Virus record (IMG/VR): IMGVR_UViG_3300025450_000049
Coordinates: 1-43,952 of that record
DNA: 43,952 bases
Direction: 5' to 3' (one strand)
Source: a virus
Position 1 is the stretch's first letter; each line of letters starts with the position of its first letter. Made by a program: the position numbers and the translations under genes. Below, in pieces: positions 7,827 through 42,329 of this stretch. The notes beneath the pieces are model-generated. The model was not told the origin of the DNA. It was given only the letters and a program-made list of their open reading frames with translations, and made no database searches.

Positions 7827-7851
7827 ATACACTAATTTAATGTAATGTCAA
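7824..7851 (-). promoter_or_regulatory. Sigma-70 type promoter
   Basis: TTGACA, 16 bases, TATAAT, at the very end of ftsH. It overlaps the ftsH terminator and reads into the 59-aa gene. Confidence 0.75.
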
Positions 7852-9641
7852 CCTTTCATAATTTTCTCAATCTGTTTAACATCGATTGTTTCGTGTTTCA
7901 TTAGGGCAGTAACCATTGCTTCGACTTTATCCCAATTAGTTTTAAGGATTGTCTTAGCACGACCGTAATTACGTTCAATAACCTCTTCAATTTCCTTTTC
8001 AATTTGATTATTGATTTCATCTAGTCCTTGTTTTAAGTGGCTATGTCCTGCACCTACATATCCGCCATCTTCCTCGACGTATTTAATAGGTTGTAAGTTT
8101 TTGCTCATGCCCCACTCTGTTACCATTTTAGTAGCAAGTAGAGTTGCACGTTCAATATCATTGCTAGCACCTGTAGTAATTCCATCTTCGCCTGCAATAA
8201 TTTCTTCAGCAATTCTTCCTCCATAAAGACTTGCGATCTGTCCTTCTAATTTACGCTTACTCATACTAACTGAGTCACGTTCTGGAAGGAACATTGTGAT
8301 ACCTAATGCGCGTCCCCGCGGAATGATGCTGACTTTGTAAATCGGATCATGCTCTGGTGTTAAGTAACCAACTACTGCGTGTCCTGCTTCATGATATGCA
8401 GTTAAACGCTTTTCATCTTCACTCATTGCAAAAGTTTTACGTTCCGCACCCATTAGGATCTTGTCCTTGGCCTTTTCAAAATGCTTCATATGAATTGCTT
8501 CACGATCGCATTTACTTGCTAAAATACTTGCTTCATTGACTAGGTTTGCAAGTTCTGCACCACTAAATCCAGGTGTACCACGTGCTAAATCATGTAACTT
8601 AACATCTTTTGCTAATGGAACATCTTTAGTGTGTACTTTAAGTATTTGTTCGCGTCCGTTAATGTCTGGAAGTCCTACTGTAACTTGTCTATCAAATCGT
8701 CCTGGACGAAGTAATGCTTTATCAAGAATTTCGGGACGATTAGTTGCGGCAATAATAATGATGCCAGTTGATGCTTCAAATCCGTCCATTTCAACAAGTA
8801 ATGCGTTAAGGGTTTGATCACGTTCGTCGTTGCCCATAATGCTACCATTACGTGCTTTACCGATTGCATCAATTTCGTCAATAAATATAATACAAGGTGA
8901 TTGTTTCTTTGCTTCAACAAACATATCACGTACACGACTTGCACCTACACCGACAAACATTTCAACAAAGTCGGAACCGGAGATACTAAAGAATGAAACA
9001 CCCGCCTCTCCTGCTACTGCTCTTGCTAGTAATGTTTTACCTGTTCCTGGGGGGCCTACTAGTAAGACACCACGAGGTATTTTACCACCTAATTTACTAA
9101 ACTTCTTTGGATCCTTTAAGAAGTCTACAATTTCTACAACATCTCCTTTTGCTTCATCGCATCCTGCTACATCGGCAAACGTAATTTTTTGGCTTGTTTC
9201 GTTGAGCAATTTATGTTTGCTCTTGCCCATTCCATTAGTACCGCTACCCATCATTCTATTCTGTTTACGCATGAACCAAATCCACACGCCGATCAAAACA
9301 AGCATCGGGAACCAACTGATGAAAATTTCAAAGAATAAACTTCTATGTGGAGGTTCTTGAGCTCGAACTTCTACATCGTTATTAAGTAAGTCATTAATCA
9401 ATGCAGGATCATTTGGTGTATAAACAATAAACTGTTCTCCGTCTCTTGATTCACCTCTAATCACCCTATCATCGATCATAACTCGTTTGATTGTATGCCC
9501 GTGAACTTCCCTAACAAATTGACTATAAGGAAATGGCATTGGACCGCGTTCTTTGTTTCCGTTTATTGTGTTAAACATAACATACAACGATACAATGAGA
9601 ACTGCAAAAAGAATTGCAGTTGAGATATTTTTATTAATCAT
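7848..9641 (-). CDS. ftsH: ATP-dependent zinc metalloprotease FtsH, phage-encoded
   Basis: A 597-aa protein with the full FtsH layout. It has a TM helix at about 8-25, a small periplasmic domain, a second TM at about 103-124 and an AAA+ module: Walker A GPPGTGKT (196-203), pore motif FVGVGA (229-234), Walker [11 protein letters not shown] (251-260) and the SRH with LRPGRFD near 311. The M41 protease domain has the zinc motif HEAGH (417-421). FtsH extracts and degrades membrane proteins and unstable regulators; in E. coli it turns over lambda CII and LpxC. It lacks the long C-terminal tail of E. coli FtsH (644 aa). All catalytic residues are present, so it should be active, as a homohexamer or mixed with host FtsH. 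A terminator follows. Confidence 0.97.
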
Positions 9642-41461: not shown

Positions 41462-41536
41462 TGGCGCTGGTAACGAGAATCGAACTCGTACTTGGGGTGT
41501 TAGAAGCCCTCGTGCTAACCTTTACACTATACCGGC
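41462..41536 (-). tRNA. tRNA-Arg(TCT)
   Basis: Acceptor GCCGGTA/TACCAGC, D-arm AGTG/AGCA, loop CTTCTAA, T-arm ACGAG/CTCGT, CCA encoded. The anticodon stem has an unpaired position, so the anticodon call is less firm. Confidence 0.82.
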
Positions 41537-41585: not shown

Positions 41586-41617
41586 TGAAAAAGAAAGGCT
41601 CCGAAGAACCTTTCTTA
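41586..41617 (-). terminator. Terminator of the tmRNA gene
   Basis: AAGAAAGG / CCTTTCTT hairpin followed by five Ts on the minus strand. Confidence 0.85.
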
Positions 41618-41820
41618 CCAAATTGTGTAACAAGGTTTGGTAAACCCCGGAGTTGCTGGTTATTAAGCAGCGATTGCGAAATCTTCGTCTAAAGAAACGT
41701 TGACTTCGAAATACTCAAAGTTAGAGCTGTTTGCGTCTAAATTTATTTATGCCGATTAGGTCGGGCATCTATCCTGTTGCCATCTCTGCTATCTTACCAC
41801 GTCGAAACTGTGTCTGGCCC
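41618..41820 (-). ncRNA. ssrA: tmRNA coding piece (permuted ssrA)
   Basis: Starts GGGCCAG at 41820, which pairs with CTGGTCC of the acceptor piece. GTTTCGAC follows, as in tmRNA 5' domains, then an ATGCCCGA/ATCGGCAT pseudoknot-like stem. The tag reading frame begins at GCA 41734 and ends in two TAA codons (41665-41660). The 23-residue tag starts ANSSNFEYFE and ends DFAIAA, with the hydrophobic end that marks proteins for ClpXP-type degradation. tmRNA frees stalled ribosomes. The exact 3' end is not certain. Confidence 0.9.
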
Positions 41821-41934
41821 ATTATAAAATAAACTCTATAGCTTCCAATTCACTTTAAGCACTCTTCTGTGGGTGCGCTACTTCAATCTACTTAGTTATT
41901 TGCAACTAACTAAGTCTAAGGTAAGTTTATTTTA
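41821..41934 (-). ncRNA. tmRNA intervening segment
   Basis: Spacer between the acceptor and coding pieces. Its ends carry complementary AAAATAAAC/GTTTATTTT tracts that would bring the two tmRNA ends together before RNase processing. Confidence 0.75.
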
Positions 41935-42060
41935 TGGTGGACCAGGCCGGTTCTGCCCCGGCGTCCGCAATACCTTCACTTCAATGGAATTACAACAATT
42001 ACTTTCGTTGGTTTTTCATCCACGGAGGTTGATAACCAACATATTCTTTACAAAATAGCC
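41935..42060 (-). ncRNA. ssrA: tmRNA acceptor piece (permuted ssrA)
   Basis: Ends GCCGG GGCAGAA CCGGC (T-arm-like), CTGGTCC, A, CCA, with the CCA encoded at 41935-41937. It precedes the coding piece in transcription order, which defines a permuted two-piece tmRNA. Its 5' border is approximate. The GGCAG T-loop is of the kind I associate with alphaproteobacterial two-piece tmRNA. Confidence 0.85.
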
Positions 42061-42080: not shown

Positions 42081-42329
42081 TTACTTCAATGCTCCCTTAC
42101 GGAATGCACGATCTAACTTATCACCGATGTTTTCAAGAGCGATATTTGCCTTATTAGCAGAATCAACCGCCTTATTAGCAGCAGCCTGTGCTTCATTAAC
42201 GGTATCACGTACATCCTTCAAATTAACTTGAAGTGCATCTACTTGATTTTGTACTGCCTTAAGGTCGCTCTTTGATGCGCAGCCAACAGTGAAAAGTGTA
42301 GCAACTGCTACGATTAAAAACTTATTCAT
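42081..42329 (-). CDS. Lpp-like lipoprotein, 82 aa
   Basis: MNKFLIVAVATLFTVGC is a lipoprotein signal with lipobox (TVGC, cut before Cys17). The mature part is one long heptad-repeat helix (SDLKAVQNQVDALQVNL..AANKAVDSANKANIALENIGDKL) ending FRKGALK. Size, helix and C-terminal Lys match Braun lipoprotein/OprI, which trimerises and ties the outer membrane to peptidoglycan through that Lys. A phage copy could interfere with or reinforce the envelope; the role is unknown. Confidence 0.8.
   Translation of the reverse strand: MNKFLIVAVATLFTVGCASKSDLKAVQNQVDALQVNLKDVRDTVNEAQAAANKAVDSANKANIALENIGDKLDRAFRKGALK

Follow-up and report, generated by a model that had tools for sequence, protein, structure and literature searches.

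A permuted tmRNA gene in a virus record

A complete permuted (two-piece) tmRNA gene is located on the minus strand at positions 42036-41590 of the window, the whole 43,952-base stretch analysed, which is an IMG/VR virus record without end repeats. tmRNA releases stalled ribosomes and tags their incomplete protein for degradation. The gene matches tmRNA_permuted (RF04321; cmscan/Infernal) with 112.6 bits against a cut-off of 47 (E = 2.5e-21, span 41663-41997) and, over its full length, beta_tmRNA (RF01850) with 87.1 bits against a cut-off of 84 (E = 5.1e-25, best in its clan). Its acceptor piece lies 5' of the coding piece with a spacer between them, CCA is encoded, the acceptor stem contains the G3-U70 alanine-identity pair, and a resume codon leads into a tag frame closed by a stop (Table 1). 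An earlier note on this DNA had claimed a permuted two-piece phage tmRNA and had named a model score below threshold as grounds for giving the claim up; both scores exceed their cut-offs, the contig is viral and a clade of jumbo phages conserves the gene, which bears the claim out. The interval proposed there, 41618-42060, does hold the gene, although the gene slightly exceeds it (41590-42036).

The anatomy described in the earlier note was also recovered. On the minus strand the acceptor piece (CTGGTCC-A-CCA, 41945-41935) is transcribed before the coding piece (GGGCCAG, 41820-41814), and the acceptor strands GGGCCAG and CUGGUCC pair over 7 bp, G3-U70 included. The complementary spacer (41934-41821) folds back on itself through a 12-bp stem, the strong terminator consists of a UUCG-looped hairpin and a U-run (41613-41590), and the 23-residue tag ending AIAA is read from frame 41734-41663 as ANSSNFEYFEVNVSLDEDFAIAA followed by a stop. 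Folded as a single strand, the whole RNA has a z of -3.8, with 0 of 100 shuffles equally stable, and a two-strand fold of the pieces restores the acceptor stem, the T-arm and the long H2 helix. ARAGORN missed the window tmRNA, for which the long tag and the non-canonical T-loop GGCAGAA are the probable reasons, but it did detect relatives built in the same way. A second contig (L003), 99.8% identical to the window, has the same tmRNA gene, which is therefore not an assembly slip.

Table 1. Parts of the permuted tmRNA gene and the evidence for each
Feature	Position	Strand	Evidence
Whole permuted tmRNA gene	41590..42036	-	RF01850 full-length match, 87.1 bits; RF04321, 112.6 bits
Acceptor piece, transcribed first, 5' end approximate	41935..42036	-	cmscan alignment; 5' hairpin GUUGGUU...AACCAAC in fold
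T-arm GCCGG-GGCAGAA-CCGGC, non-canonical T-loop	41946..41962	-	Sequence and two-piece fold
3' acceptor strand CUGGUCC, A73 and encoded CCA	41935..41945	-	Sequence; kept pairs in relatives
Intervening spacer, 114 nt; 12-bp closing stem 41934-41923 with 41836-41825	41821..41934	-	12 bp reached in 5/10,000 shuffles
Coding (mRNA-like) piece, starts GGGCCAG, 3' end inferred	41615..41820	-	Sequence, cmscan, fold
H2 3' strand, PK1-like region, resume-codon upstream element UUUAGAC-GCA	41735..41797	-	cmscan alignment; pseudoknot pairs predicted
Tag reading frame ANSSNFEYFEVNVSLDEDFAIAA and UAA, 23 codons	41663..41734	-	UAGAC-GCA-AAC... resume context
Inserted 13-codon module SSNFEYFEVNVSL between AN and DEDFAIAA	41690..41728	-	Comparison with relatives' extended tags and canonical 10-mers
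3' hairpin UUUACCAAA...UUUGGUAA	41615..41644	-	Fold
Intrinsic terminator hairpin (UUCG loop) and U-run	41590..41613	-	Sequence and fold

In phage permuted tmRNAs a non-canonical T-loop, GGCRGTR, replaces UUCGANU repeatedly (41946-41962 in the window, L108, L114, L118, L120-L123, L245 and L255). Small ORFs beginning directly after CCA were observed in 12 of the 38 distinct spacers (L014, L109, L249, L112, L117, L246, L247, L250, L261 and L266); the expected number is 2.7, and 500 simulations gave at most 8. In many cases an RBS-like AAGGAG precedes the ORF. Three of the ORFs specify membrane peptides of 24 residues that are homologous to each other (MDDNLGSLAIGVVVVVVVFALVLL and its relatives), suggesting that the phage tmRNA precursor may double as an mRNA.

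The window also contains 36 tRNAs (ARAGORN), a phage AAA ATPase (phrog_2376), an FtsH homologue (7848-9641, minus strand; M41 protease, AAA and FtsH_ext domains) and, by eye, several homing-endonuclease-like ORFs and sugar-modifying enzymes. Directly upstream of the tmRNA lies an alanine-zipper (Lpp-like) lipoprotein gene (42081-42329, minus strand), and a DUF2828/DUF7788 protein (1195-2598, minus strand; phrog_850 'RNA-binding protein') presumably resembles TROVE/vWA-type RNA-binding proteins. A small protein (phrog_18771; 43242-43571, plus strand) has counterparts of 93% identity at three further phage loci with extended tags, against about 56% identity of the ATPase to that of the relative G018, which suggests recent exchange in this region. 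Just downstream of the tmRNA is a tRNA with a CTA (amber) anticodon (41462-41536, minus strand); such tRNAs occur also in L006, L007, L008, L117 and L353, on at least two different tRNA backbones. Stop-codon recoding was rejected as a reason for the phage tmRNA, as TAG readthrough gave no appreciable rise in coding density in three large relatives; TAG stops are rare there (2-5%) with no recoding signs, and this also applies to G089, in which no CTA tRNA was detected.

Ancestry and distribution of the gene

An alphaproteobacterial (or cyanobacterial) source had been proposed in the earlier note, together with an Infernal search using the corresponding models, and the covariance-model scores reject it. 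The alpha_tmRNA model (RF01849) gives 43.2 bits, below its cut-off of 50, and no cyano_tmRNA (RF01851) match survived clan competition, from which beta alone was kept; relatives score up to 124 bits with the beta model. Of 399 Burkholderiales genomes, 21 score above the permuted cut-off, and 16 of these are strong matches. The tags of these 16 are 10 residues long in 14 cases, 11 in one and 28 in one; Burkholderiales permuted tags end in AIAA or ALAA (for instance ANDEQFAIAA, ANDERFAIAA, ANDEHFAIAA and ANDERFALAA). A comparison with host tags had likewise been proposed: the window's 23-mer is unlike the 10-residue tags and not host-like, and its core, DEDFAIAA, matches their style. Because the beta score exceeds the alpha score and DEDFAIAA resembles the Burkholderiales tags, a betaproteobacterial ancestry is best supported, as an ancestry of the gene and not a host assignment.

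With betaproteobacterial permuted tmRNAs (RF01850/RF04321) the window gene shares the permuted order, the G3-U70 acceptor stem, CCA, H2, the resume element, the 3' hairpin, the terminator and a tag core ending AIAA. However, it is phage-borne, and it differs in its T-loop (GGCAGAA versus UUCGANU), its 114-nt spacer and the length of its tag (23 versus 10 residues). The 28-residue Burkholderiales tag (GNQPSNLQVMQQFDVPTPANGDQYLNVA; L294 in genome G359, C1:892401-892640) is unlike the phage tags in sequence, and a weaker second match elsewhere in G359 may be the ordinary tmRNA of that genome.

Relatives of the window were gathered with the phrog_2376 ATPase as query, leaving the tag unused (80 fetched, contigs up to 364 kb). 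A permuted tmRNA above the cut-off is present in 27 of 50 ATPase-related records and in 7 of the 8 contigs of at least 200 kb among the ATPase-retrieved relatives, and is therefore the rule in the jumbo-phage clade of the window; in an earlier set it was found in 6 of 11 records, one of the six being the window's twin contig. ATPase identity across the tmRNA-bearing clade is just 53-61%. The first three pairs are G-C, G-C and G-U (G1-C72, G2-C71, G3-U70) in every one of 28 distinct acceptor/T-arm combinations, and pairs 4-6 show three or four standard pairings, with one mismatch overall. In these combinations acceptor-stem pairs 4-6 covary directly and the alanine identity pair is retained.

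The earlier statement that phage tmRNAs are rare is correct for phages as a whole, with 2.3% of 18,146 genomes (PMC9004378), whereas in the window's clade they are common. So far, 53 phage permuted tmRNAs are known (PMC9004378), 79 phage tmRNAs of all forms have been counted (PMC11915505), and tmRNA and translation factors have been reported in huge phages (PMC7162821). The marine permuted tmRNAs of OM43 phage Melnitz and pelagimyophages (PMC9004378) are also complete, two-piece and phage-encoded, in phages without signs of integration. However, they are reported as alphaproteobacterial-type, with a glutamine riboswitch in Melnitz, whereas the window gene is beta-type with an extended tag; no riboswitch was found at the window at Rfam thresholds. 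The huge-phage tmRNAs are comparable in their carriers, but extended or swapped tags and the beta permuted form are not described in the available part of that source (PMC7162821). Our survey of the open-licence literature found no description of phage-encoded extended or swapped tags. What is new here is the tag; the phage permuted tmRNA itself is already known.

Extended and exchanged tags

A canonical SsrA tag has about 10 residues (AND-x3-ALAA), and the 23-residue tag of the window departs from this form, being a canonical-style tag split by 13 residues (AN, module and DEDFAIAA; ANSSNFEYFEVNVSL-DEDFAIAA). Most relatives have canonical 10-mers (ANDEVYALAA, ANDTRFALAA, ANDSVYALAA, ANDEQFALAA and others), and a few have 13-14-mers. 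Tags of 23-28 residues occur in the window and in about 15 further distinct phage tmRNAs; they have 13-18 extra residues, and AN is followed by an F[EK][YF]F motif. Their pattern is AN, then [AST][SND][TN]F[EK][YF]F..., then a canonical-looking end, as in ANADTFEYFTVDFNISA-MNDEQFEMAA and ANANTFEYFKVPASVAFS-ANDADFAMAA. At lengths of 23, 24, 27 and 28 residues the reading frame is preserved, and every such tag closes with AA or VA preceded by a small hydrophobic residue. A third class is the nearly invariant 31-mer ANASKGEVTVSAGKGIRFSARSSVKAETFAV, found on 19 contigs with differing tRNA-like parts. Instead of AA, the 31-residue tags have FAV at their end, and some extended tags end in MVA.

At the level of sequence, related phages demonstrably share and swap enlarged tags. 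For instance, about 70 nt before the resume codon are identical between L101 (10-mer) and L104 (23-mer), and the tags then differ. On the ATPase tree, in which long branches near the window leave its exact placement unsure, FEYF tags appear in four positions scattered among the 10-mers, whose tree also holds one clade with the 31-mers. Moreover, peptide-level selection is evident from the codons of the longer tags: outside the search pattern, pS is 0.53 versus a pN of 0.19 in the 28-mers and 0.31 versus 0.14 in the 27-mers. The FEYF codons, which are biased by the search pattern, give 0.61 versus 0.14. The four 23-mers, the window's own class, show no clear synonymous excess (pS = 0.34 versus pN = 0.29), and we counted this against our best explanation.

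A bacterial source of the extended tag was rejected, since none of 56 tag-pattern matches in 84,980 species genomes lies behind a tmRNA core, although the pattern is of limited sensitivity and bacterial tags in other codons could be missed. These 56 matches look like chance, and 20 of the 25 viral matches are tmRNAs. Comparison of the tags with Pfam, PHROG and PDB returned nothing credible, and derivation of the module from a known protein domain was likewise discarded.

Partners and possible roles of the extended tag

No SmpB was found in the 11 records searched, including contigs of 343 and 353 kb; a phage-encoded SmpB was dropped as a candidate, and host SmpB would therefore have to be used. 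ClpP is present in 20 of 38 records, and in 9 of the 10 that reach at least 200 kb. The strong ClpP matches lie near bacterial ClpP models, and a second copy with a weaker match may be a head-maturation protease. Three large relatives, G018, G089 and G038, each have a full ClpA homologue, which scores about 885 bits with the ClpA model without reaching its equivalog cut-off, and all three encode ClpP as well. The ClpA of G018 has the IGF loop, which is the ClpP-docking loop of ClpA. ClpA has already been annotated in other jumbo phages, and because G038 has a 10-mer tag, ClpA and ClpP do not track the long tag. In the window, a 44-kb fragment, ClpP was not found and ClpA was not seen among the ORFs. 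Among the 35 records FtsH is confined to the window, and its absence from the 34 related ones led us to reject it as a general tag partner.

We consider it probable (roughly 0.68) that the window carries a functional beta-type permuted tmRNA gene, vertically inherited with tag exchange, that aids rescue and whose module steers tagged proteins to another protease. The gene would be passed on vertically within the jumbo-phage clade, its tags often being exchanged. It would be transcribed as a single precursor from which tRNA-processing enzymes remove the spacer, and the two pieces would re-pair into an alanine-accepting tRNA-like domain that enters stalled ribosomes with host SmpB. During infection this may provide extra ribosome rescue and feed the stalled products to proteases. 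The C-terminal DEDFAIAA would act as an ordinary Clp-type degron, and the 13 extra residues as a peptide module, a second recognition feature absent from the 10-mer. In the E. coli tag, residues 8-10 are read by ClpA and the last two alanines by ClpX, and SspB favours ClpXP (PMC12493166). The extended tags keep the end and probably move or dilute the SspB-binding start, and the likeliest effect would be that tagged proteins are steered off host SspB-ClpXP delivery to another protease. A candidate is the phage ClpA/ClpP encoded by the three large relatives; in the window phage it is possibly FtsH. A functional analogy is offered by Mesoplasma florum, whose long SsrA tag has an altered protease specificity and is read by Lon (PMC9382460). 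However, that tag is bacterial, unrelated in sequence and ends in NYAFA, whereas the phage tag keeps the canonical degron end. Retargeting of degradation by the tag is plausible on these comparisons, and better grounded because extended tags are conserved as peptides and patchy on the tree, and because ClpA and ClpP occur together in three large relatives.

Alternatively, an ordinary phage tmRNA might boost rescue alone, its extra residues being neutral or a longer linker and tagged proteins meeting the same fate as with the host tag. Such a role would agree with the C-terminal degron core kept in all extended tags, with the closeness of pN to pS in the 23-mers and with the existence of long bacterial tags (22 residues in Chlamydia trachomatis; PMC12493166). 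We regard this as rather unlikely, however: it would be surprising for a neutral insert to be gained repeatedly and patchily on the phage tree, synonymous changes accompany the recurring F[EK][YF]F motif, and in the 27- and 28-mers pS exceeds pN 2-5-fold at codons outside the search pattern. It seems less likely still that the phage tmRNA opposes trans-translation by competing for SmpB and ribosomes, with a poorly degraded tag protecting truncated phage proteins. The tag-less tmRNA-like RNA of phage DS6A, cited as an inhibitor of host tmRNA in PMC11915505, would be a precedent, and the FAV ends of the 31-residue tags and the MVA ends of some others would fit. The window tag and most extended tags nevertheless keep the IAA, LAA or MAA ends typical of Clp degrons, and phages of the clade supply Clp proteases instead of evading them. 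Passive recent pickup of a host tmRNA gene without a role, for instance at an integration site, is very improbable even though integration often occurs at tmRNA genes and the gene fits the beta model, because no bacterial tmRNA in 84,980 species genomes matched the tag pattern, which leaves an identical host gene without support, and because the gene spans a clade of 53-61% ATPase identity with compensating stem changes.

The preferred reading, a functional tmRNA with a steering module, can be carried further, and here we are tentative. For jumbo phages the SsrA tag may serve as a targeting cassette that can be exchanged, in which the aromatic F[EK][YF]FxV peptide or its 31-residue alternative would direct the products of stalled ribosomes to a protease of the phage's choice, for example phage ClpAP. 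If this is true, a phage would reprogramme bacterial protein quality control by means of an RNA-encoded peptide. Trans-translation tags are among the most conserved bacterial peptides. A phage lineage that repeatedly swaps in larger tags and carries Clp parts would represent a natural series on tag sequence versus protease choice and would bear on why phages have tmRNA at all, and its extended tags could serve as orthogonal degrons.
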